Positions 1,849 through 55,570 of a DNA stretch of 64,000 bases are shown here, one piece after another (the stretch's first letter is position 1; each line of letters starts with the position of its first letter). The translations under genes were made by a program, and so were the position numbers. The stretch spans positions 186,001-250,000 of the forward strand of contig DVEG01000026.1 of the NCBI GenBank assembly GCA_015295835.1, given 5' to 3'. This DNA is from Oscillatoriaceae cyanobacterium M7585_C2015_266 (GTDB taxonomy: Bacteria > Cyanobacteriota > Cyanobacteriia > Cyanobacteriales > Oscillatoriaceae). Under the pieces are notes generated by a model. The model was not told the DNA's origin. It searched no databases and saw only the letters and a list, made by a program, of their open reading frames with translations.

Positions 1849-2727
1849 ATGAAAAAAACTGAAATTTTTGATTTCGACGATGAAAAATTCAAAGCACCGC
1901 CTGCGAATACCCTTCCTTGGTGTCAAATGATCAACCCCCAATTCAGCCTTGATGGTATCAAGCCTTACGGATTAGCGATCAAACTAAATCAAGCTCAGGC
2001 GGCAGGCTTCAAGCCCGATGAAAATTGGCAGCAAATCGAACACGAATTCAGTAATGGCAATGTCGCAACCCTGTTTATCAGCAGCCGTCCTCGCTTAGTG
2101 ATTGTGCGGCGTGGTCCAATCTGTATCAAAGATCGAGAAACTGGCGACAACCTAGGGCGTTTGATGGATCACTACGGTGTTTTCAAAGCCGCGCGCCTCA
2201 AATTCAAAACCTTCACCCGGTACCTAATTTTCTTCGTTGGATATGACAAAAAATTTCTCCACTCTATTCCTTTGCGCTTGACGCTAAGCGGTGCTGCCGG
2301 TGTTAGTTTTGCTATAGCTTATCGCCATTCCAAAATGGGAGAAGCGACATCAGGTTTCACTGTAGATCTTGAAAAAGCCTATGCCGAATACCGTAATCAA
2401 CCCTGTGTAACCAAAGGACCTCTTTTTCACGCCCACGGTATTTTTTGCCCGATTTTCGAGGCTGTAAAAAAAGTAATAGGGTCAAATACCGTTTGGATAT
2501 GCGAGACCACTGGATACGAACGTCCGAGTTTTAAAAACGTCACTAATTATCTGATTCCGTCCAATTCTGATGAGTCGTTTCTGCTTGAAAAAATATTTGA
2601 AGAATACAAAGATTTTTGTCAAGAAATCCCCAAGGCGGAATTGGTCAATTTTGATAACAAGCAGGGAATTTCTAATGATTACAATTACCACGATGAATAT
2701 GATTATCAGAACGAGCCTCCTTATTAA
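1849..2727 (+). CDS. Conserved cyanobacterial protein, DUF5895-like
   Basis: A 292-residue soluble protein with no signal peptide or membrane helix. It begins with MKKTEIFDFDDEKFKAPPAN and contains LPWCQMINPQ (about residues 23-32). This pattern, together with the internal RLVIVRRGP stretch, I associate with a cyanobacterial family named DUF5895. No enzymatic motif is apparent. The last 30 residues are acidic and rich in Tyr, Asn and Asp (NYHDEYDYQNEPPY), probably disordered. The start at 1849 is preceded by a purine-rich AAGGAAAG some 15 bases upstream, so the ribosome binding site is weak. It stands alone between divergent tenA and convergent mobA. Function unknown; the family name is given from memory and is uncertain. 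Confidence 0.6.
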   Translation: MKKTEIFDFDDEKFKAPPANTLPWCQMINPQFSLDGIKPYGLAIKLNQAQAAGFKPDENWQQIEHEFSNGNVATLFISSRPRLVIVRRGPICIKDRETGDNLGRLMDHYGVFKAARLKFKTFTRYLIFFVGYDKKFLHSIPLRLTLSGAAGVSFAIAYRHSKMGEATSGFTVDLEKAYAEYRNQPCVTKGPLFHAHGIFCPIFEAVKKVIGSNTVWICETTGYERPSFKNVTNYLIPSNSDESFLLEKIFEEYKDFCQEIPKAELVNFDNKQGISNDYNYHDEYDYQNEPPY

Positions 2728-2769
2728 GTCATTTGCTTAACAACCAGATTTTTTAAAGAAACCGGGTTT

Positions 2770-3384
2770 TTATAAATCTTCTGGTGTATTGCAATTGTGC
2801 AACATTTGCGCTTCTTTGGTGCCAACTGACAGGGGCTTAACTGGAAGGCGAGCGAGCCAGTGCTGTAGGGAGCGACCCCCTTGGGCGATAAAATCCTGCA
2901 AATCTTCCTGTGCCCTTGTTCGATAGAAACCGCACAAAGGTTCCCATCCAAAAGAGTGTAGGGGTACTACTGCCAAAATTTCTTCAGAAACTTCACTTAA
3001 CTGCTGCACCCAACCCTTGAGAATATCAACCTGCAATAAAGGCATATCGCACGCCAACAATAAAACCCACTCTGCGGAAATTGCCGCCAATCCTTGCGCC
3101 AGAGCGACAAGTGGTCCTTGGTGGGGCTGAGTTTCCAGCAGCCAGAAACACTTTTGCTTAACAATTCCCTGATAGCGCTCAACCCAGGGCGTAAGAATAT
3201 AAACCACTGCTCCACATTCTACTGCCACGTTACAGACTCGCTGCAGCATAGGTATTCCTTCCCAAACAATCAATGCTTTATCCTTTCCCATGCGCGAACT
3301 TTTTCCGCCGGCGAGAATAAGTGCCGCGAGAGGAACTCTAGAATGTGCTGTGTGGAGTGTAGAATGTGAGAACGAATTCAGCAT
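2770..3384 (-). CDS. mobA: Molybdenum cofactor guanylyltransferase MobA
   Basis: Transfers GMP from GTP to molybdopterin to make the bis-MGD cofactor used by enzymes such as nitrate reductase. The nucleotide-binding signature LILAGGKSSRMGKDKAL sits at the N terminus, followed by the LLLACDMPLL Mg-binding segment, both typical of MobA. The reading frame is open to a TTG at 3402, but the first ATG is at 3384, giving 204 residues, close to the normal length; the exact start is uncertain because neither has a strong ribosome binding site. It follows the TrpD2-like gene almost without a gap, and ntcB lies upstream in the same direction, which places it in a nitrate-assimilation setting where molybdenum cofactor is needed. 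Confidence 0.88.
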   Translation of the reverse strand: MLNSFSHSTLHTAHSRVPLAALILAGGKSSRMGKDKALIVWEGIPMLQRVCNVAVECGAVVYILTPWVERYQGIVKQKCFWLLETQPHQGPLVALAQGLAAISAEWVLLLACDMPLLQVDILKGWVQQLSEVSEEILAVVPLHSFGWEPLCGFYRTRAQEDLQDFIAQGGRSLQHWLARLPVKPLSVGTKEAQMLHNCNTPEDL

Positions 3385-3403
3385 TTCCGGATGAATACAC
3401 AAG

Positions 3404-4456
3404 CTATTTTAGCGCCCCATTAATTTCCTGCAATTTTGCAGCAGCCTCACCGCCAGAGAGTAAAGCTTCAGCTTTGGCAAATCCTGCTTTCAAGTCTGTG
3501 CATACGCCGCAGCGCCAGAGATAAAAGCCGCCATTCCAGATAGCAGATTTCATCAATTCCGAGGGTTTGCCTTGCAATACGCTGTGTATTTGTTCTACAA
3601 GTTCGGGGGTGGAAGAGAGGGGAACGTCATTTCCTTGGAAGCCGTAGTCGTGGGCGGGCAATAAGAGGCGCTGGAAGTGAGGTTTTCCATCGCTATCCAA
3701 AGAGCAAGTGCCGATAATAGCGGTGCGAGCGCGCGGTAAGTCGCAACTGCCTTCTAATCCTTTGACGGTAGTGAAGTGGCGGGTGCCTCGGAGTGCGTGG
3801 GCTTCTCGGAAAAAGTTTTCTGTGGGGGGATGCACGAAGCCAGAAAAGATGTGAGCGTCGCCAGAGTAAGGACTCCATATTAATTCTAAAGTTGCCAGAG
3901 GGGGGCGTTTGCCGATTTGGGAGCGGTAGGGAACGATTTTATGGGCGAGGGGAAAGTGTGTGGGCAGGTAGACGAATCCTACTAGAGTTTTCTCAAATAC
4001 TTGCTGGCACTGTTTTAGGGAAAGGCGATGCCAGTTGACGCCCAAACCCTGCCAGATTTCTATTAGGGGTGTGCCTTCTTTGGTGGGCATGCGCTCGCCT
4101 CCGTGCTGCACTACGGCAATGCCTGCTGCTGCTAGAATCAGTGCCGTTAGTGGTGTGATTGGTGCATATCGCGAGTGTCCATCGTAGGGGCAGCCTAAAA
4201 CTGCAACTGGTTGCGAGGGTGCGAGCGCTTGTAATTTCGGTCCTAATTTATCGTAAGCATCTAACATTCCTGCCAATTCTTCGCCAGTTAGCCGCTTGAT
4301 GCGGTGAGCGATTAGAAACGCTCCTATCTGTGCCGGTGTTGCTTCCTGCTGCAATATCATCCGGATAGCTGCTTCTGCTTCAGCGCGGGTTAAATTTTCG
4401 CTTGTGTGCTTACCGCTGCCGATTTTACGCAGCAATTCCCTGAATGCATCGCTCAT
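3404..4456 (-). CDS. Anthranilate phosphoribosyltransferase-like protein (TrpD2/YbiB type)
   Basis: A 350-residue member of the glycosyltransferase family 3/TrpD fold. The helical N-terminal domain (TRAEAEAAIRMILQQEATPAQIGAFLIAHRIK, split here by the usual spacing of TrpD) is normal. The glycine-rich PRPP-binding motif GTGGD of true TrpD is replaced by LGCPYDGHSRYAP at about residues 87-99, and the KHGNR..SS.SGSAD segment reads QHGGERMPTKEGTP (117-130). It is therefore unlikely to make phosphoribosyl-anthranilate; TrpD2/YbiB homologues in other bacteria bind nucleic acid. It lies between ntcB (20 bases upstream) and mobA, all on one strand, an arrangement I recall from nitrate-assimilation clusters of cyanobacteria. 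Function unresolved. Confidence 0.75.
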   Translation of the reverse strand: MSDAFRELLRKIGSGKHTSENLTRAEAEAAIRMILQQEATPAQIGAFLIAHRIKRLTGEELAGMLDAYDKLGPKLQALAPSQPVAVLGCPYDGHSRYAPITPLTALILAAAGIAVVQHGGERMPTKEGTPLIEIWQGLGVNWHRLSLKQCQQVFEKTLVGFVYLPTHFPLAHKIVPYRSQIGKRPPLATLELIWSPYSGDAHIFSGFVHPPTENFFREAHALRGTRHFTTVKGLEGSCDLPRARTAIIGTCSLDSDGKPHFQRLLLPAHDYGFQGNDVPLSSTPELVEQIHSVLQGKPSELMKSAIWNGGFYLWRCGVCTDLKAGFAKAEALLSGGEAAAKLQEINGALK

Positions 4457-5554: not shown

Positions 5555-6415
5555 CTAAGCATTGGGCTTTTTATTTTTTATCTGTATCAATTGATAAGAA
5601 TTGTAGAGATTGTGGTAAAGTATATAAAACATCGGACCTAGGGCAACTATTGGATTGAGGAGAGAAAGAGAAAGCCAGACAGTAAACATAGTATTTTTTT
5701 GTCCGAGGGATTGGCTTGCTTCCTGCGCGAATTCTTTACCGCCGATAAATCTACCTACCTGGAAGTTTACTGCGCATATAATTAAGGATATGATAGCGAT
5801 CGCAGTAATCATCCCAAGTGATGCATTTGATTCTTCTAAAATAAAATGTGTTGCTTTTGCACTAGCTATAAATAGTATGAGAATCCAAGTATAAAAGCCA
5901 ATTTTTTTTATTTTTATTAAGTAACAAAATAAATCAAAAGATATAATTTTGAGTAAGCGAGATAAAACAAGCGGGGTAAAAAATAAAAATAAAATAGAGA
6001 AAAATAATTTTTGAGTAGAGATGAGATGGCCGGGATGAATAAAGGGTATAATAAAAGGAAGGATGGTGGCTACAATACTATTAGTAAGAATTACTGAAAT
6101 AACGTAATCGACATTTCCCTTTAAAAAACTGATAATTGCGGGGGCTGAGATAGCAGTAGGGCTGATGGCTGTGATAAAAGAGACAAAAGCTAACTCTGAG
6201 TTGAAAGTAGATAAAAGAAAGTAGGCGGAAAAAGCAATAGAAAGATTAGCGATCGCTACCCAAATTGTCTGGAAATAAAATTTATCTATTTTAGCGGTTA
6301 AAAAAGCAAAAAAAAGAACGCTCATCAGCAGATATTGAATAAGAAAAGAATAGACGTGAGCTGAGGGAAATAAAATTCCCAAGAGAATGGCAGCGAAAGG
6401 TAAAAAAGATTGCAT
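5555..6415 (-). CDS. Bile acid:sodium symporter (BASS) family membrane protein
   Basis: A 286-residue polytopic membrane protein with eight to ten hydrophobic helices and short loops. The stretch SPTAISAPAIISFLKGNVDYVISVILTNS (shown over residues about 85-113) resembles the conserved crossover region of the BASS/ACR3 superfamily, where a discontinuous helix binds substrate. Members move bile acids, pyruvate, pantothenate or arsenite; nothing here identifies the substrate. It lacks the Cys of ACR3 arsenite carriers at the expected place, so arsenite export is not favoured. It is downstream of ntcB on the opposite side of no obvious operon partner and upstream of a terminator serving the SPFH genes. 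Superfamily assignment is moderately sure, function unknown. Confidence 0.65.
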   Translation of the reverse strand: MQSFLPFAAILLGILFPSAHVYSFLIQYLLMSVLFFAFLTAKIDKFYFQTIWVAIANLSIAFSAYFLLSTFNSELAFVSFITAISPTAISAPAIISFLKGNVDYVISVILTNSIVATILPFIIPFIHPGHLISTQKLFFSILFLFFTPLVLSRLLKIISFDLFCYLIKIKKIGFYTWILILFIASAKATHFILEESNASLGMITAIAIISLIICAVNFQVGRFIGGKEFAQEASQSLGQKNTMFTVWLSLSLLNPIVALGPMFYILYHNLYNSYQLIQIKNKKPNA

Positions 6416-6444
6416 AAATAAAAAAAATAAAAACTGGTAATAAA

Positions 6445-6468
6445 AGCCCCATATTTACATACGGGGCT
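6445..6468 (-). terminator. Rho-independent terminator after the SPFH gene pair
   Basis: On the minus strand AGCCCC (arm at 6463-6468) pairs with GGGGCT (arm at 6445-6450) around a 12-base loop that can itself form three more pairs, and the hairpin is followed by TTTTATTACC. It lies about 120 bases past the stop of the second SPFH gene and before the BASS gene. Confidence 0.65.
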
Positions 6469-6586
6469 GGGACACAGTTAGGAGGGATCTTATCAATTTC
6501 AATTTATCCCTCAAAATACCTTCTCTGCCATTTTCTTAATAACTTCTTAAGAGAGATTTTTGGCATCCATCTAACTGTATCAACTA

Positions 6587-7414
6587 CTACTTTTGTATCG
6601 GCGATTTTGCCGTATCCAGATTGATAAAAGGCAGGGCACCGTTGCCACCCAATACCATCGGAAAATGACCATCCCATTTTTCGATCGCCTGTTTTTGCAA
6701 GATTTCCGGCGTTAGATTTTCTCTGAGAAGTCGCTGCGCTTCTGCCTGCCCCTTAGCGCGGTTAATTTCTGCTTCTGCTTCTTTCATAGCCTTGAGGGCT
6801 ATAAACTCAGCACGTTTAGCATCTTGTTCAGCAATTTGTTTTGCTTCCACCGCCTCGCTAAACCGCTTTGAGAAATGAATATTTACAAGAGAAATATCAT
6901 CCACCGCAACATTATAATTTGCTAGTCGCGACGTCAATAAATCGTCAATACCTGCTTTAACTTCTCCCCGCCTAGTTATAATTTGCTCAGCTGTGTACTG
7001 TGCCATGACGGCTTTCAGCACTTCTTCGATAGCTGGGTTTATAATTCGCTGCACTATTTGCCCTTCATTTCCCACCTGTTGGAAAACTTTGTTAACTTTT
7101 TCCGGAACAATGTGCCAGTTTAAGGCCACGTCTGTATAAACATCTTGTAAATCTTTCGATGCAGCTTCTGCAGGTATTTGGTGTTTTTGCACCCGCACAC
7201 TTAGTCTCTCGACTGTGTTTACTATCGGAATTATAAAGTGCAGCCCTTCATCGAGTACTTTTTCCTGAACCTGCCCGAATTTCATCATCACTCCCCGTTC
7301 GCCTGCGTTAACAATTACAAAGGGCTGAAAGACTATTAGCAGGAGTGCCAAAACTGCTGCGCTCGCTCCTACAATATAACTTATATTTCTCGACTTCACA
7401 ATCTTTTCTCTCAA
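6587..7414 (-). CDS. SPFH/prohibitin-family membrane protein, paralogue 2
   Basis: A 275-residue prohibitin-like protein: one N-terminal membrane anchor (about residues 12-33), an SPFH/Band-7 domain that begins with VNAGERGVMMKFGQVQE, and an Ala/Glu-rich coiled coil (about 190-240, KQIAEQDAKRAEFIALKAMKEAEAE in two parts). Prohibitins form large ring scaffolds in membranes and protect or organise membrane proteins, in cyanobacteria also in thylakoids. The start appears to be TTG at 7414; the ATG five bases upstream (7419) is out of frame and stops at once, and there is no in-frame Met before MMKFG. It is the second of two adjacent paralogues (gap about 34 bases), evidently a tandem duplication and probably co-transcribed. 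Confidence 0.88.
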   Translation of the reverse strand: MREKIVKSRNISYIVGASAAVLALLLIVFQPFVIVNAGERGVMMKFGQVQEKVLDEGLHFIIPIVNTVERLSVRVQKHQIPAEAASKDLQDVYTDVALNWHIVPEKVNKVFQQVGNEGQIVQRIINPAIEEVLKAVMAQYTAEQIITRRGEVKAGIDDLLTSRLANYNVAVDDISLVNIHFSKRFSEAVEAKQIAEQDAKRAEFIALKAMKEAEAEINRAKGQAEAQRLLRENLTPEILQKQAIEKWDGHFPMVLGGNGALPFINLDTAKSPIQK

Positions 7415-47759: not shown

Positions 47760-48143
47760 ATGATATCCAAACCCAGTTTCGATGATCGAAGTCTGGCTCA
47801 ATCCTTTTACCAGACATTACTCAATCGCTTTTGTGAATCTTTTCAATCACCTATAAGTTCTATCTTATGTGAATGCAATTTTGGGATTGCCCCTAGTCCA
47901 AAAGGCGAGAAAACCTTCTTCATCATAACTCCCTCTTTAGATACAGCAGAGCAACTGACGCAAAACATCGACATCATCATTAGCAAAGTCAATAAATGGA
48001 TACCAAGAATAACTCAGACGGCAATATGCATAGTGCCGCCGAAAAGTCAAGAAGACTACCGAGACGAGACAAACAAGCAAAAACAACTCCCCTCAAAGTT
48101 TATGTTAGGAAAAGTATTCCGCCACAATCGGGAATCTTATTAA
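47760..48143 (+). CDS. Hypothetical protein upstream of the partner-switching set
   Basis: A 127-residue soluble protein, no membrane segment or known motif. It has an excellent AGGAGG ribosome binding site at 47745-47751 and an ordinary start ATG. Residues 1-90 look folded with alternating hydrophobics (TFFIITPSLDTAEQLTQNIDIIISKV in words); the end is polar. A hairpin terminator follows 85 bases on. It lies in the same direction as the STAS-sugar transferase gene but ends in its own terminator. Not recognised. Confidence 0.6.
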   Translation: MISKPSFDDRSLAQSFYQTLLNRFCESFQSPISSILCECNFGIAPSPKGEKTFFIITPSLDTAEQLTQNIDIIISKVNKWIPRITQTAICIVPPKSQEDYRDETNKQKQLPSKFMLGKVFRHNRESY

Positions 48144-48637: not shown

Positions 48638-49636
48638 ATGGTTAGCCAAAGTCCAGAACCAATTTTTCAGGTTTCCATCTCCAACCAAAATGCAGTAGTG
48701 CAGTTACCTCCACGTTTAAGCGTACTGGAAGCCGTAGCCTTCAAGCAAACTTGTCAACAGCTATACCAAGAAAACCCAGCCCCCAACCAGATTATCCTCG
48801 ATTTCAGCCAAACCACTTTTATTGACAGCAGCGGAGTAGGAGCATTAGTAAATAACGTCAAAACCGCGCAGCAGCAAGGAGTAAAACTGATATTGCGGGG
48901 CGTACAGCCCCAAGTGATGGCAGTTTTATCACTTACAGGGCTAGATCAAGTTTTGACAATTGAGCCAACAGTCGAAACAAAGCAATTTAGTAAAACCCGT
49001 AAAGTTGAAGAAAATCTGCCAACAACCCATCCCTCAGTACGCTCCTGGGTAAAACGTGCCATAGATATTGTTGGTGCCCTAGTTGGTTTGGCAATTACAG
49101 CAGTTTTGTTGATACCCATTGCCATTGCTGTTAAACTAGATAGTCCAGGCCCAGTTTTTTTCGGTCAGATTCGCTGCGGCTGGATGGGTAAACGATTTAA
49201 GCTGTGGAAGATTCGCTCTATGTACGTAAATGCCGAGGCTATGAAGTCACAAGTACCTAACCAAATCGAGGGGCCACTTTTCAAAAATGAAAATGACCCT
49301 CGGATTACGCGGGTAGGTCGATTCTTGCGGCGAACAAGTCTGGATGAATTGCCACAATTCTGGAATGTCCTTAAAGGAGAAATGAGTCTAGTAGGCACCC
49401 GACCTCCACTTCCAGAAGAAGTAGAACGCTATGATGTTCCCGAATGGCAACGCTTAGATGTTAAGCCGGGTATGACTGGAGAGTGGCAGGTAAATGGTCG
49501 CTCTTCGATTCGCAGTTTTGAAGATGTAATCCGCTTAGATTTGAAGTACCAAAAGAACTGGAGTTTGATGTATGATTTAAAACTAATTATAAAAACAATC
49601 TTAATTTTGTTTAGTAAAAACAGCGGTGCTATGTGA
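48638..49636 (+). CDS. STAS domain-polyprenyl phosphate sugar-1-phosphate transferase fusion
   Basis: 332 residues. Residues 10-105 are an anti-sigma antagonist (STAS) domain with the phosphoacceptor loop FIDSSGVG and Ser64/Ser65. Residues about 135-332 are an initiating glycosyltransferase of the WbaP/PssY type: an N-terminal membrane helix (VKRAIDIVGALVGLAITAVLLI region), DSPGPVFFGQIRCG, RFLRRTSLDELPQFWNVLKGEMSLVGTRPP, and DVKPGMTGEWQVNGRS, given here as recognised family segments. It transfers a sugar phosphate to undecaprenyl phosphate to start exopolysaccharide synthesis. The fusion implies that phosphorylation of the STAS part by the adjacent RsbW-like kinase, reversed by the adjacent phosphatase, controls the transferase. 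Start ATG 48638. Confidence 0.9.
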   Translation: MVSQSPEPIFQVSISNQNAVVQLPPRLSVLEAVAFKQTCQQLYQENPAPNQIILDFSQTTFIDSSGVGALVNNVKTAQQQGVKLILRGVQPQVMAVLSLTGLDQVLTIEPTVETKQFSKTRKVEENLPTTHPSVRSWVKRAIDIVGALVGLAITAVLLIPIAIAVKLDSPGPVFFGQIRCGWMGKRFKLWKIRSMYVNAEAMKSQVPNQIEGPLFKNENDPRITRVGRFLRRTSLDELPQFWNVLKGEMSLVGTRPPLPEEVERYDVPEWQRLDVKPGMTGEWQVNGRSSIRSFEDVIRLDLKYQKNWSLMYDLKLIIKTILILFSKNSGAM

Positions 49637-49722
49637 AAAAAATAAAAAGATAAAGAGAGAATGTGAGGTATGTTATTATTATGAATTAAAGGTGCATATG
49701 TCTGTATTTGATGTTGTAGAAG

Positions 49723-50226
49723 ATGATTCTAGAGAACTTTGAAAGCTGGTGGAAAACCTTTACTTCCCAACTAGGGATACAACAGAAAAAAACTGTTAAA
49801 TGGCGGCGGCGTTCTCATTTGCAAGTAGGGACGGATTTGAAGGCTTTAGCAGAAGTTTTACAATGGTTTGAGCAGTTCAATCTGCCGTGTTTTCCAGCTA
49901 ACCTGTGGTGGCAATGTCAAACTGCTTTAGCTGAAGGGTTTACAAATGCAGTTCGTCATGCTCATAGTGATTTGCCGGAGAGTACCCCCATTGACATCGA
50001 TGTGGAAATATGCGATCGCTATCTAGAAATAAAAATATGGGATCGGGGTAAACCGTTCGATTTAGAAGCAAAATTAGCATCCATTAGTCAAGAGGAATTT
50101 GATCCTTTGGAAAGAGAAAACGGTAGAGGGCTAATATTTATAAGAAAACTAACAGATGAGGTTTGCTACACCCGTACCCCCGATCAGCGAAATTGCCTAT
50201 TGATGCGAAAAAATTTCCGTCTATAA
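49723..50226 (+). CDS. RsbW/SpoIIAB-type serine kinase (anti-sigma factor-like)
   Basis: A 167-residue GHKL ATPase. N-box EGFTNAVRHAH (71-81) with Glu71 and Asn75, G1 box WDRGKPFD (106-113), G2 GRGLIFI (134-140). In partner-switching systems such kinases phosphorylate STAS proteins on the conserved Ser and sequester a partner. It is 86 bases downstream of the STAS-transferase gene. The N-terminal part (1-60) is Trp-rich and lacks similarity to other kinases. An overlapping 14-codon frame (49698-49742) with AAAGG upstream ends inside its first codons, and may be a leader peptide or the sign of another start. Confidence 0.85.
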   Translation: MILENFESWWKTFTSQLGIQQKKTVKWRRRSHLQVGTDLKALAEVLQWFEQFNLPCFPANLWWQCQTALAEGFTNAVRHAHSDLPESTPIDIDVEICDRYLEIKIWDRGKPFDLEAKLASISQEEFDPLERENGRGLIFIRKLTDEVCYTRTPDQRNCLLMRKNFRL

Positions 50227-50558
50227 TTACTTAACTCTTTAAGCTGAACCCTGGCTGCATTTTCTGTTATTACCTTCAATCAGAAAGCTTTTGTCTGACG
50301 GTTGGGTGCCTAGCTGGTGAAAGTCAAAACTCAGCCTAATCAACTGTAAAATATCTCAGATATAAAATTAAAATAATAAAATTTTTTTATATTTATTTAA
50401 GAAAAATTAATAAAAAAAATTGTTTGCTCAAAGAAAAAGGAAAATCTGAAAAACTCCACAATTGGAGATAAATAGCAAATAAAAAGGATTTTTCGTAGCT
50501 TACCTATAGATGTTAGAATAATCTATTCCCTCGAAACGAGTGAAGTGAAATTAGAATC
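50227..50558 (+). promoter_or_regulatory. AT-rich spacer between the kinase and phosphatase genes
   Basis: 332 bases without an open frame. About 50375-50425 is almost pure A/T. A promoter for the phosphatase is likely but no convincing -35/-10 pair or hairpin was seen. Confidence 0.3.
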
Positions 50559-53189
50559 ATGAAGGCACTATCGCCTGATAAAGAACTCCGAAGAAGAGGA
50601 AAGCAAACAGTTGACGAAGCCCTAAAAAATTTGACACGCCTAGCTGCTCATTTAAGCGAAACTCCTATAGCATTGATATGTTTAAGCGAGCAGAAGCGAT
50701 ATTGGCTCACTTCCCAAGAGAAGTGGAAAGAACTATATGTATCACGAGCGATCGCTTTCTGTGCCAAAATAATACAGCACGACTTAGTATTTGTCTTTGA
50801 AGATGCAAGCAAAGATGCGAGACTAGCAACCAGTCCCCTAGTGGTTGGCAAACCTCACATTCGGTTTTGTGCAGGGGCAGCGCTGGTAGCAAGAAACGGT
50901 AGAACTTTGGGCTGTTTGTGCGTGATGGATAACGTTGCGCGAAAGATAAGCCCAGAGAAATTAGAAATCCTGCAAATGCTTGCTGCGCAAGCGAGCGCCC
51001 AATTGCAGTGCTGCATCGAATTGGCAAAGGTGAAAATTTCCCAGATTAAATTACAAAATTCGCTCGAAAAAGCCAGCGTTTTAATTCAAACCACCCGTCT
51101 TAGCGACAGCAGCTTGATTTATGTTAATCAAGGCTGGCGGCAGAGCTTGGGCTACAATAATAGTGAAATAGCTCAACTCTCTGTGTGGGATATTTTGCAT
51201 CCAGAATACCACCAACAGTATACAAACTTGTTAGAAAAACTCCGCAGGGGAGAAGAGATTGAAAAAGCGAAACTGATTTTTTTGACAAAAACCGGGGAGG
51301 CGATTTGGGTAGAAGGAAATGCCAATTGCCTCAGGAAAAAAGGTCAACCCCAGGCAGCGCGCTGGATTTTGCAAGATACAAGCGATCGCAAATACCGGGA
51401 ATTATTTGAACATGCGGCAATTGGACTATTTCAAGCCTCTCTCGACGGATGTTACCACACGGTAAACCCTGCCTTAGCTAAAATTTATGGCTACGATTCA
51501 CCAGTCGAATTAATACAAAGCATTGAAAATATAAGTAAACTCTACGTTGATCCTCATCATTGGGCTGATTGTATGCAAAAACTAGAAGCAGAAGATTGCA
51601 TACAAGATTTAGAATCAGAAGTTTATCAACGCAATGGCTCAGTGATTTGGGTTTGTGAGACAATTCGACTGCTACGAGATGAAAACGGGCAACCAAAAGG
51701 AATTGAAGGAACCGTACAGGATATAACCATTCGCAAACAAGCAGAAGCAACATTGCGACTGGCGAGGAATCAATTACAAGCCGTATTGGATGCCGTACCT
51801 GGATCGGTTTCCCTAATCAGTTCTAATTTTCGTTATCTAGGAGTTAACCGACATTTAGCTGCTAGTTATAATTTGTCTCCTGAAGCTTTTGTCGGAAGAG
51901 AAATCGGTTTTCTCCAGCCGGCATTTGCTGAATTTGTACGAGAATTTTTTGCTAGCCCTGATGAAGAAGTGTGGCGGGAAATTGAGATAGATATAAATGG
52001 CACGCCCCGCACTCACCTGATGATGGCAAAAAAATGGCTCGCTAATGAAGCAGCAGTGTTTGTGGGGATAGATATTAGCGATCGCAAATTGGCAGAAGCT
52101 AATCTCAAAGTAGCTAAAGCGCAACTACAAGCTGTTTTAGATGCTGTTCCCGGTACGGTTTCACTGATTAATTCTCAATTACGCTATGTGGGAGTTAACC
52201 GTCATCTTGCTTCTATTTACAACTTTCCCCCAGAATATTTTATCGATCGCGAAGTAGGCTTTCAGCAATCTGACTTTGGTAAGTTTGTGCGCGAGTTCTT
52301 TTCTATCCCCGCTGAAGAAGCATCCAGAGAAATCGACACAGAAGTTAATGGTATCTTTCGCAGTGATATGGTGATTGCCAAGAAATGGCAGGAAGATAAA
52401 GCTGTTTTTGTTGGCATCGATATCACTCAGCGCAAACAGGCGGAGGCAGCACTCAAAGCTGAATTAGCAGAAGCCGCTGAATATGTTCGCTCCCTCCTCC
52501 CACCCGCTATAACAGAACCCCTAGCAATTGAGTGGCGGTTTATTCCCTCTACACAAGTAGGGGGTGACTGTTTTGATTATTATTGGTTGGATGATGAACA
52601 TTTAGCTATTTATTTGCTTGATGTTTCGGGTCACGGTTCGCGGGCAGCACTGCTTTCGGTTTCACTGTTAAATATTTTGCGCTCGCGCTTTCTTCCCAAT
52701 ACTAATTTTTACCAGCCGTCAGAAGTTTTACAAGCCCTCAATCACGCCTTTCAGATGGATATGCAGCGGAATATGTATTTTACTATCTGGTACGGCGTTT
52801 ACAACCGAATTAAGCGCCGACTCGTTTACTCTAGTGCTGGACATCCTCCTGCTTTATTGCTATCGCGCTCGCCTGCTGGTACTACCGAAATTCGTCAATT
52901 ACAAACTCGTAGTTTGCCTATTGGCATGTTCTCTAACATTGAATATAACAATGTCAAGTGCGACATCAAAACCCCCAGCACCCTTTACGTCTTCAGCGAT
53001 GGCATTTATGAAATTCACTTAGCTGATGGCAATCTTTGGGGGCTAGATAACTTCATCGAATGGCTGTCGAAAGCTTGGAACCTGAATAACTTTAGCCTCG
53101 ATAACATTATAGAACATGCTCGCGGCTTGAGTACCAGACATGCTTTCGACGATGACGTTTCCCTCCTACAAGTTAAATTTAACACATAG
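50559..53189 (+). CDS. GAF-PAS(4)-PP2C/SpoIIE serine phosphatase
   Basis: 876 residues, cytoplasmic. GAF at about 15-155 (LSEQKRYWLTSQEKW, LGCLCVMD), then four PAS domains in series at about 170-285, 290-395, 400-515 and 520-635; the third and fourth are near-duplicates (both with QLQAVLDAVPG.VSLI and VGVNRHLA, and each ending in VGIDI..RK). The last part (640-876) is a PP2C/SpoIIE phosphatase with GGDCFDYYWLDDEHLAIYLLDVSGHG, holding the metal-binding Asp and Gly residues. This is the RsbU/HmpU-type sensor phosphatase that dephosphorylates STAS proteins; the signals sensed by GAF and PAS are unknown. Partners are the adjacent STAS proteins. Confidence 0.92.
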   Translation: MKALSPDKELRRRGKQTVDEALKNLTRLAAHLSETPIALICLSEQKRYWLTSQEKWKELYVSRAIAFCAKIIQHDLVFVFEDASKDARLATSPLVVGKPHIRFCAGAALVARNGRTLGCLCVMDNVARKISPEKLEILQMLAAQASAQLQCCIELAKVKISQIKLQNSLEKASVLIQTTRLSDSSLIYVNQGWRQSLGYNNSEIAQLSVWDILHPEYHQQYTNLLEKLRRGEEIEKAKLIFLTKTGEAIWVEGNANCLRKKGQPQAARWILQDTSDRKYRELFEHAAIGLFQASLDGCYHTVNPALAKIYGYDSPVELIQSIENISKLYVDPHHWADCMQKLEAEDCIQDLESEVYQRNGSVIWVCETIRLLRDENGQPKGIEGTVQDITIRKQAEATLRLARNQLQAVLDAVPGSVSLISSNFRYLGVNRHLAASYNLSPEAFVGREIGFLQPAFAEFVREFFASPDEEVWREIEIDINGTPRTHLMMAKKWLANEAAVFVGIDISDRKLAEANLKVAKAQLQAVLDAVPGTVSLINSQLRYVGVNRHLASIYNFPPEYFIDREVGFQQSDFGKFVREFFSIPAEEASREIDTEVNGIFRSDMVIAKKWQEDKAVFVGIDITQRKQAEAALKAELAEAAEYVRSLLPPAITEPLAIEWRFIPSTQVGGDCFDYYWLDDEHLAIYLLDVSGHGSRAALLSVSLLNILRSRFLPNTNFYQPSEVLQALNHAFQMDMQRNMYFTIWYGVYNRIKRRLVYSSAGHPPALLLSRSPAGTTEIRQLQTRSLPIGMFSNIEYNNVKCDIKTPSTLYVFSDGIYEIHLADGNLWGLDNFIEWLSKAWNLNNFSLDNIIEHARGLSTRHAFDDDVSLLQVKFNT

Positions 53190-53203
53190 TTATTTCCACA
53201 TAT

Positions 53204-53542
53204 TTAAACTCCGGATATTTCTGCCTGAGATAATGCGTTATAAACTGCCTCTCTATTGGTATATATTTCTAGCAGTCTATCTACCCCCGCCAATTCAAAT
53301 AACATTCTTACTTGATTGTTGAGTGAACAAACTACTATTTTACGTCGCGCTGATTTTACTGTTTTTATTGCGTTTACCAGAACCCCCAAACCGGAACTAT
53401 CCATAAATTCTATATTCTGAAAATCAATTAAAACAACGTCAGCTTTTGACGCTATAATTTCATTTATTTCCTGGTCGAATTGAAAAGCCTTATTTCTGTC
53501 TAAAATGCCAGAAGGTTGAACAACTTTTACAATAAAACTCAT
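53204..53542 (-). CDS. STAS-domain anti-sigma factor antagonist
   Basis: A 112-residue single STAS domain, SpoIIAA/RsbV type, with the phosphoacceptor loop FMDSSGLGVLVN and Ser49/Ser50. It is encoded convergently to the phosphatase, 14 bases from its stop. In partner switching, the dephosphorylated form binds the kinase. It gives the cluster a free STAS in addition to the fused one, so that the two could compete for the same kinase and phosphatase, or serve a different target elsewhere. Start ATG with AAGTTTG upstream, no strong ribosome binding site. Confidence 0.92.
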   Translation of the reverse strand: MSFIVKVVQPSGILDRNKAFQFDQEINEIIASKADVVLIDFQNIEFMDSSGLGVLVNAIKTVKSARRKIVVCSLNNQVRMLFELAGVDRLLEIYTNREAVYNALSQAEISGV

Positions 53543-53887: not shown

Positions 53888-55120
53888 TTAAGGTTGGCGG
53901 CAAATTCCAAAAACTGAAGTATAGCCGTGTAGAAAAGTGCTGTTGCCCACGGGGCCAATTTCGCCGTTACAGAAAAAGCCGCTGACAGGGACATTATTAA
54001 AGTAGCGGCTGAATAAATGGGAGTCAAAATGGGGCTGTCCATAAAGTCCCTGTCCTCGTCCAAGACAAGAAAACATCAACGCAGCTTTAGGAGCCGAGTA
54101 AGCATCTATCTTGTAGCGATAGCGTTTCAAGAGCATTTCCAAATCTTCGGCAGAGGTGCGAGCGTCACGCAAGTGAAATTGGATACGTTGCCCAGGGCGA
54201 ACGCGATCGCCGATAGCGATTGCCCCAGTTCTCGGTTCAACTCCCAGCAAATTGCGGATGAGAAAATCCCCATGTTCCAATTGCGATTTAAATTCATCGC
54301 GGGCAATTCCTACAAATAGGGAGTGCTGAGCTAGTTGTCGATCTGAAGAGCTGAGATTTTCAATCTCAGAGCGGAGAATTTCCAGAGGCGAGCGCGACGA
54401 ATTTCTGGGAACAGGGTATTCCTCCAATCCCAAAACGATATTGCGCTCGCCGGCACTAACACGATAAGTCTGCCCGAACGGACGACATCCCTGAGCCACT
54501 ATTGTCTCCAACACAATTTCCCCGCTCAGGGCCACTCCTACCGTTCCCTGGCGGTAAAGCTGGTAATTACAGAACAGAGCATAACTATTGCTTGTCATGC
54601 CACCGCTAGCAAGCCCTCCCACTTTTGACGCCCCTGGATAAGCAAAATCGAGTCCCTGCAGTAAATCAATTGCTTTTGCTCCCAAAGGTTCTGCTAGCAA
54701 AATAAACTGAGGCTGTTTTGAAGGCGGCACCCCAACCAGTTGCACCCAGGCATCTGGAGGGCCATCTAAGTCAGGCAATTCCTCTGCCACTATGTGAAAG
54801 ACACGCACATTCACCCCCGGCAAATAAGCCAGCGTTAGACTCAGCGCCGGTTCACCCTCAATTTCTCGTGCCTCGCCTTGCTGATTCATGCCCACAATTC
54901 CGCCGCCGCTACAGCCTATTATCGCTGGCACCTTCAGAATTTCCTGCAGCAGGGGCATCAGCCGCGAATACTCACTGGCAAAGGCTGCTGAAATAAACAC
55001 CAGCCCTAAATCTGGCGGCTCCTCTAATTGCTGCTGCGCCCTCTCGACAACTTCTTTAACTGCCGCTTCTAGAGAAGGACGAGTGGATAAGGCGTTTACC
55101 CATTTCATTTGCTCTGCCAT
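53888..55120 (-). CDS. FIST-domain signal transduction protein
   Basis: About 410 residues: FIST N-terminal domain (about 25-210; ALVFISAAFASEYSRL type, IIGCSGGGIVG) and FIST C-terminal domain (about 220-395; IAIGDRVRPGQRIQFHLRDA, ALMFSCLGRGQGLYG, SGFFCNGEIGPVG). FIST proteins are thought to sense small ligands such as amino acids and are usually fused to kinases, cyclases or chemoreceptors; this one is free-standing. The frame is open to a GTG at 55189, but the ATG at 55120 (MAEQMKWVNALS) gives the usual N terminus and is chosen. Divergent from cp12. Neighbouring partner-switching genes may be functionally related, but no link is visible. Confidence 0.83.
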   Translation of the reverse strand: MAEQMKWVNALSTRPSLEAAVKEVVERAQQQLEEPPDLGLVFISAAFASEYSRLMPLLQEILKVPAIIGCSGGGIVGMNQQGEAREIEGEPALSLTLAYLPGVNVRVFHIVAEELPDLDGPPDAWVQLVGVPPSKQPQFILLAEPLGAKAIDLLQGLDFAYPGASKVGGLASGGMTSNSYALFCNYQLYRQGTVGVALSGEIVLETIVAQGCRPFGQTYRVSAGERNIVLGLEEYPVPRNSSRSPLEILRSEIENLSSSDRQLAQHSLFVGIARDEFKSQLEHGDFLIRNLLGVEPRTGAIAIGDRVRPGQRIQFHLRDARTSAEDLEMLLKRYRYKIDAYSAPKAALMFSCLGRGQGLYGQPHFDSHLFSRYFNNVPVSGFFCNGEIGPVGNSTFLHGYTSVFGICRQP

Positions 55121-55570
55121 AGATTCTTTCCCTGATAGGGATGCAACATCCTCACGAGGGCCAACGCCTATACTATAACGCAATTGCACACCGTTTGAAA
55201 GCTATCTGGGAATTTTTCTTTCTGCTGTGTTATAATTTCCGAGTTATTATAGCGCCTTGCCTAAAATTAGTTATAGCCAGCCCTTGCAGCGAATACGATA
55301 TGATAGAATAGCGGCAGCCTGTGTAAAGTACCTACTCTTTCAGGGAGGGATATAACATAAAAACCGTAACGCAGAACTCAGCAGTAAACTGACTTCGGCG
55401 TTTCCTTAGCAGCCCAATCTAAGAAAAACATAGATTCCGTAAGGCTGCAGTGGCTTCAGGTTAATAATAAGCATTAACCAGCAGGAGCCACCCCATAATC
55501 AAAGCTTGAGGTAGCTCAATTTAGCTATTTTTCAGGTACTGATCTCAACGTTGTTCAAACCAATAACTCT
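55121..55570 (+). promoter_or_regulatory. cp12 upstream region with a structured 5' leader
   Basis: Nested helices precede cp12: GCAGCC (55409-55414) with GGCTGC (55443-55448), enclosing AATCTA (55416-55421) with TAGATT (55431-55436); then GGTTAAT (55459-55465) with ATTAACC (55473-55479); and TTGAG (55506-55510) with CTCAA (55515-55519), followed by TTTAGCTATTTTT, which resembles a terminator. TAGAAT at 55304-55309 is a possible -10. No known riboswitch class was matched. Confidence 0.5.

Follow-up and report, generated by a model that had tools for sequence, protein, structure and literature searches.

A STAS-fused phosphoglycosyl transferase with a linked RsbW-like kinase in cyanobacteria: a candidate partner switch with an enzyme as its output

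What does a partner-switching gene set control when no sigma factor is encoded with it? The question is raised by a locus of Oscillatoriaceae cyanobacterium M7585_C2015_266 (assembly GCA_015295835.1), located in a stretch of 64,000 nucleotides of contig DVEG01000026.1 (positions 186,001 to 250,000 of the forward strand), which was analyzed here and is referred to as the window. Four genes lie together in it: a 332-aa fusion of a STAS domain with a sugar transferase (48638-49636, + strand), an RsbW/SpoIIAB-like serine kinase of 167 aa (49723-50226, +), a GAF-PAS-PP2C (SpoIIE-type) serine phosphatase of 876 aa (50559-53189, +), and a free single-domain STAS protein of 112 aa (53204-53542, −), the gene of which is convergent with that of the phosphatase. 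The translations of the open reading frames (ORFs) and their Pfam matches confirmed these four genes of the original prediction. Its statement that no sigma factor is present also held, as a Sigma70_r2 search of the genome found no such gene on the contig of the window; the set therefore does not have the cognate sigma gene that is encoded with sigma-controlling Rsb sets. Based on the sequence analysis below, we lean, with modest confidence, toward reading the locus as a partner-switching module with an enzyme output, in which the kinase would gate a polysaccharide-priming transferase through Ser65 of the fused STAS domain.

The fusion consists of a STAS domain (PF01740, residues 18-114, 66.3 bits), a flexible linker (residues about 113-131) and a Bac_transf domain (PF02397, residues 139-325, 227.2 bits against a cut-off of 27). 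It passes the cut-off of the NCBIfam family EPS_sugtrans TIGR03025 (300 vs. 295.55), and according to domain and cut-off it is predicted to be a monotopic phosphoglycosyl transferase (PGT), or exopolysaccharide sugar transferase. The pair Asp236-Glu237 of the Bac_transf domain, which we take to be the catalytic Asp-Glu pair of phosphoglycosyl transferases, is conserved in all 96 fusions aligned, as are Asp63 and Ser64 (each 96/96). The candidate phospho-acceptor Ser65 (window 48830-48832) is a serine in 95 of the 96 fusions and a cysteine in the remaining one (L140; here and below, L and G numbers denote individual loci and genomes). Counting in the translations verified that Ser64/Ser65 of the fusion and Ser49/Ser50 of the free STAS protein, which had been proposed as phosphorylation sites, are the serines of the DSSG motifs. 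The fusion was modeled with AlphaFold (mean pLDDT 72.1, pTM 0.54), giving two folded parts, which match the PglC-type transferases and the SpoIIAA/RsbV folds and are connected by a low-confidence stretch at residues 113-131; with this pTM, the model was considered unusable as a guide to the domain arrangement.

The other three proteins are candidates for the remaining components of a partner switch. The kinase (HATPase_c_2, PF13581, 81.5 bits) falls below the RsbW equivalog cut-offs of NF003144 and TIGR01924 (43 vs. 145 and 35.1 vs. 155.05, respectively), so the label “RsbW-like” given to it originally is correct, whereas “RsbW” would be wrong. A search of the PDB with the single kinase sequence gave no match, but the profile of its family matched RsbW (6m36) and SpoIIAB (1til). 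The N-box residues Glu71 and Asn75 are retained in all 44 fusion-linked kinases aligned. The phosphatase contains a GAF domain and several PAS domains, a putative sensor input, followed by a SpoIIE/PP2C domain (141.2 bits), and its PP2C part matched 3es2 (1.7e-20) and, weakly, SpoIIE (5ucg, 0.00059). The free STAS protein matched SpoIIAA (1th8, 1.5e-12). The window thus holds a kinase with an intact N-box, STAS domains with the DSSG serine and a PP2C/SpoIIE-type phosphatase. Separately, it was noted that two adjoining PAS stretches of the phosphatase (residues about 400-515 and 516-635) resemble, by eye, a recent tandem duplication, and that the protein measures 876 aa in the window and 781-798 aa in five of six relatives.

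Within the window's family, seven other genomes were available, six of which contain a full-length fusion; G392, which is about 66% complete, has none and was excluded. The six fusions share 75-78% identity with that of the window, and the order and orientation of the fusion, the kinase, the PP2C phosphatase and the convergent free STAS gene are kept in all six (in L224 the phosphatase is split across two frames). A homologue of a 127-aa ORF located upstream of the fusion (47760-48143, +, no Pfam match) is also present in 6/6 of these loci and is a possible accessory part of the set. Laspinema palackyanum (L257) has the four-gene set as well. Richelia sinica FACHB-800 (L259) and Nostoc sp. FACHB-280 (L260) share a different arrangement, in which the fusion and the kinase are followed by a STAS gene and an opposed PP2C gene.

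The fusion had been regarded as special to this locus. This part of the original prediction was not borne out, since STAS-PGT fusions proved to be widespread in cyanobacteria. Across 386 sampled genomes of the phylum, picking by hand among the matches listed gave 95 full-length fusion loci in addition to that of the window, where full length means that the query was covered from residue 19 or earlier to residue 328 or later; the counts are lower bounds, at most five candidates per genome having been scored in most cases. Neighboring genes were detected with profiles seeded with the window's own proteins (E 1e-5), which remote kinases and phosphatases may escape, in flanks that end at contig ends. 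Adjacency was defined by distance, as a kinase within 0.9 kb of the fusion whatever lies between, and L143, with its kinase 2.5 kb off, was counted as not adjacent. According to this definition, a kinase gene adjoins the fusion in 38 of the 95 loci, representing 12 of 16 family codes. It lies downstream in all 38 and on the same strand in 37 (the opposite strand in L147). The two frames overlap in 17 loci, a count that may be too high because frames were run from the first start codon, and are separated by 0-150 nt in 13 and by 342-851 nt in 8. Through this linkage, the predicted tie between a partner-switching set and an initiating sugar transferase is upheld indirectly.

No other neighbor is kept in as many family codes as the kinase, the next being a DUF3318 gene with 7. 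Matches to PP2C were found in the flanks of six of the 38 kinase-linked loci (L121, L141, L142, L148, L149, and L150) and matches to a free STAS likewise in six (L051, L121, L141, L142, L148, and L150), four of them within 1 kb. Since the kinase is kept where the phosphatase and the free STAS are rarely near, the fused STAS is favored as the kinase's own target. The core unit is therefore most likely the gene pair of fusion and kinase, with the phosphatase and the free STAS as an optional input.

Among the 57 fusions without an adjacent kinase, 45 form a single clade of the fusion tree (code f6), unlike the window fusion in having no neighboring kinase. We read this code as Nostocaceae, because a fusion of this code matches records of Nostoc, Calothrix, Anabaena, and Trichormus first. 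On this tree, from which L228 (G386; DSSA in place of DSSG, with Ser65 kept) was left out, kinase adjacency requires seven changes. A similar distribution was seen among 22 named loci in which the STAS-PGT match was full or nearly so (L243-L263 and L266): the kinase lies beside the fusion in five (L257, L259, L260, L261, and L266), and 11 of the 17 without it are Nostocaceae and similar records (L243-L253).

Control loci were drawn from a different collection than the fusion sample and comprised 24 from cyanobacteria in which the PGT is not fused (L264, L265, L267-L273, and L275-L289). No kinase, PP2C or STAS match was found near the transferase in any of them, within flanks of up to 8 kb that are shorter at contig ends. 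The difference from the fusion loci is significant when kinship is ignored (Fisher p 3.9e-5). This control and the conservation of the four-gene set rule out chance co-location. Outside cyanobacteria, none of 33 PGT loci (L290-L322) among the best 80 matches of the scan had a STAS match, unlike the window fusion. On one contig of a metagenome-assembled genome (MAG) labeled Chloroflexaceae (L266:951-2405), a STAS-PGT frame is present in split form next to a kinase, and its best segment is 80% identical to a Nostocaceae-like fusion; we suspect a misplaced cyanobacterial contig. The fusion may nevertheless not be confined to cyanobacteria.

The kinases themselves form a distinct lineage. In a tree of 73 kinases, in which identical-ended sequences were merged, 44 of the 45 from fusion loci constitute one group (SH-aLRT 93), apart from the 28 others. 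The sole exception, the kinase of L143, sits in a separate module and was excluded from the alignment of 44 kinases. Several rows of the tree are long-branched and its inner details are unsure. Thirteen f6 genomes were searched with the window kinase, and all of them have other kinases, part of which were included in the tree; the only fusion-type kinase among those placed adjoins a paralogous fusion of G042.

Over the 44 fusion-kinase pairs, the distances of the STAS domain and the kinase are correlated at 0.84. The partial correlation of STAS and kinase given the PGT domain is 0.61 (0 of 2000 permutations as high), against 0.24 for PGT and kinase given STAS (3 of 2000 permutations). When only the fastest PGT columns were used, the values were 0.59-0.76 for STAS-kinase and 0.16-0.29 for PGT-kinase, and in a subset of 36 pairs they were 0.49 and 0.28. 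The divergence of the kinase hence tracks the STAS domain more closely than the transferase domain, which favors a contact between kinase and STAS.

These results are consistent with the following putative mechanism. The kinase would recognize and bind the STAS part of the membrane phosphoglycosyl transferase and phosphorylate Ser65 in it, and binding and phosphorylation would gate the transferase, the probable task of which is to load the lipid carrier of an exported polysaccharide with the first sugar phosphate. In the window's family, the GAF-PAS phosphatase may reset the STAS domains upon its signal, and the free STAS protein may compete for the kinase, drawing it off the fused STAS. The sign of the gating that we favor is that the unphosphorylated, kinase-free STAS corresponds to the active state. 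The pair of fusion and kinase may be an on/off switch for slime production, but slime or sheath as the product is a guess. The window genes have no recognized polysaccharide genes around them (about 44 to 58 kb; ORFs inspected by eye, six proteins scanned with Pfam).

The neighborhoods of other fusions bear on the priming role. A GT4-type transferase accompanies the fusion in 31 loci, an Alg13-like gene lies upstream of the fusion in 12, and an Alg14-like gene does so in 8; the proposed role fits with these neighbors. Moreover, some lineages encode longer fusions. An Alg13-like part, an Alg14-like part, STAS, and PGT are joined in one chain in two Pseudanabaena loci (L262:7023-9170 and L274:7029-9149, the Alg13-like part of the latter being just below the cut-off) and in two loci of the window's family (L229:6990-8984 and L230:7812-9806), while L147 (8001-9416) combines the Alg13-like part with STAS and PGT, without Alg14. 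Three of the long forms without a nearby kinase have lost Ser65, which is replaced by Met in L229, Leu in L230, and Ala in L274. The genomes of L229 and L230 (G390 and G391) each have another fusion (L225 and L224), located in the full four-gene set.

Several observations weigh against the reading of the locus as an enzyme switch. The case for this reading is built on sequence analysis. The 45 Nostocaceae-like fusions still keep Ser65 although they have no neighboring kinase, so that in this clade either Ser65 has another use or it would be acted on by a kinase encoded elsewhere; likewise, the long form L262 retains Ser65 without a nearby kinase, and in G014 and G076 the fusions are divergent and the window kinase finds no match. 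In a non-cyanobacterial locus from a Chitinivibrionales MAG (L319), a 403-aa ORF with PP2C and weak kinase matches (2715-3923) and the gene of a non-fused PGT (5746-7122) are about 1.8 kb apart, so that outside cyanobacteria such neighbors are not strictly confined to fusions. Residue 28 is Ser or Thr in 91 of 96 fused STAS domains and Asp in 20 of 27 free ones. By an alignment made by eye, it appears to be the position of Asp25, which is counted among the interface residues in the Slr1861/Ssr1600 work (PMC12329169, as given in the available part of that paper). Because Ser/Thr replaces the Asp of the free proteins there, the binding of the fused STAS may differ. In addition, L080, a permease-sized STAS protein of the window's genome, has a serine at the site of Ser65 (DGSA), and a serine alone is for this reason no proof of phosphorylation.

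The last two features would also be expected if the kinase controlled free STAS proteins only and the fused STAS served, unphosphorylated, to position the transferase as a scaffold or ligand-binding domain, and the persistence of Nostocaceae-like fusions without a neighboring kinase points the same way. However, free STAS and PP2C matches each occur near only 6 of the 38 kinase-linked loci, and Ser65 is kept in 95 of 96 fusions but lost in three orphan long forms, which makes a scaffold quite unlikely. The kinase could instead act as the anti-sigma factor of a sigma protein whose gene lies elsewhere, with the fused STAS as one of its antagonists, so that the enzyme would report to transcription in the direction of a trigger enzyme. 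Synechocystis offers a precedent, as its kinase Slr1861 acts on SigC from an operon without a sigma gene, with the antagonist Ssr1600 encoded elsewhere (PMC12329169, available part), and the genome of the window has eight Sigma70_r2 genes, all away from its contig. We nevertheless regard this explanation as unlikely: the kinase stays with the fusion in 12/16 family codes, and its divergence follows the STAS domain, though the same is partly predicted by a sigma output. A sigma factor encoded elsewhere could still be the output or a second output. Finally, the neighborhood may be an old operon inherited by descent, in which kinase and fusion have no functional contact. The order is always fusion then kinase (same strand in 37/38) and is repeated in close relatives, few adjacency changes are needed on the fusion tree, and the linkage could therefore be a single old inheritance; the distance correlation, moreover, cannot fully part coevolution from shared history. 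Nevertheless, STAS and kinase have diverged in a matched manner, and other neighbors are kept in at most 7 family codes against 12 for the kinase, from which we infer that the fusion-kinase link has outlasted the rest of the neighborhood. Inheritance without contact is thus very unlikely.

Extended to the whole phylum, the reading as an enzyme switch becomes a possible but somewhat doubtful generalization. A dedicated RsbW-type kinase would hold the priming transferase through the fused STAS, as the Bacillus kinases hold a sigma factor. Release of the transferase would be brought about, in some lineages, by a free STAS that a sensor phosphatase has dephosphorylated; the main Nostocaceae-like clade would possess the switch domain without a local kinase; and in a few lineages Alg13/Alg14-type enzymes for the second sugar would have been fused on, some of these proteins losing the phosphosite.

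The window's genome contains further potential switch parts. Six HATPase_c_2 matches exceed the cut-off, the frames being 143-182 aa long for five of them and 1402 aa for the sixth; of the six SpoIIE matches, four are near full length; and the eight STAS matches include two that belong to frames as long as sulfate permeases (586-587 aa). Two more PGTs are encoded, both non-fused. On contig C23, a pair of PP2C and kinase genes (168179-169201) and a Sigma70_r2 gene (173888) are separated by about 5 kb, and fusion-free modules of STAS, PP2C, and kinase occur in several genomes including the window's own (L231, L232, L233, L234, L236, and L162). As for the surroundings of the fusions, the DUF3318 gene is found upstream in 61 loci (e.g., L044:10257-10895), and genes for RsfS, a CGLD27-like protein, and a radical SAM protein were repeatedly seen nearby (30, 30, and 37 fusion loci, respectively). 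In the window, a gene for a FIST-domain, sensor-like protein (53888-55189, −) adjoins the set; it was rejected as a further member, since no FIST match was present in the six related family loci. A promoter scan gave 20 against 12.1 (sd 3.2), and a terminator scan gave 6 against 5.4.

In some switches without a known sigma factor, such as those of HmpV and SypA, the STAS protein has no known target even though motility, polysaccharide or biofilm is read out. With the STAS domain built into a priming transferase and a kinase inherited along with it, a concrete target is named, and the question fits a two-protein assay. If the proposed mechanism is true, a post-translational on/off switch would operate at the first step of a cyanobacterial polysaccharide.

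Our search found no literature linking a STAS domain or anti-sigma factor antagonist with a sugar transferase, phosphoglycosyl transferase or glycosylphosphotransferase, within a coverage that mostly leaves out subscription papers, and the titles and opening abstracts listed from the broader literature describe no kinase for a STAS-PGT fusion. The known systems are compared here from the available parts of their sources. In HmpU/HmpV/HmpW of Nostoc punctiforme, which are a PP2C phosphatase, a STAS protein, and a kinase, the STAS protein is the output and its target is undefined (PMC8256260, PMC6495340), and orthologues of these proteins in L. boryana are given by locus tag in a paper on that species; judged by description, HmpV is a single-domain STAS, whereas the STAS of the window is fused to an enzyme. 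The same difference separates the window from SypA/SypE of Vibrio fischeri, where a STAS protein under a serine kinase/phosphatase decides on biofilm formation and its partner is unknown (PMC4517449, PMC8256260), as SypA is a free STAS without a fusion. The IcfG cluster and the Slr1861-Ssr1600-SigC system have the same kinase fold as the window kinase, and Slr1861 phosphorylates STAS proteins and has a PP2C gene in its operon, but the output there is SigC (PMC12329169); the word “glycosyl” is absent from the main text of that paper.

On the side of the enzyme, PglC, WbaP, and the EPS_sugtrans family TIGR03025 have the catalytic domain, the Asp-Glu pair, and the fold in common with the window fusion. 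A close counterpart by description is All4160 of Anabaena sp. PCC 7120, a glycosyltransferase with an N-terminal STAS domain (PMC8256260) and hence with the domain order of the window fusion. The heterocyst envelope polysaccharide depends on All4160, the gene of which lies outside the HEP island; the protein is treated through its SigC/SigE-dependent transcription (PMC4390870), and the available parts of these texts name no kinase or partner switch for it. The fusion itself is therefore already known, and the part that appears new is the linked kinase lineage together with the conserved gene set.

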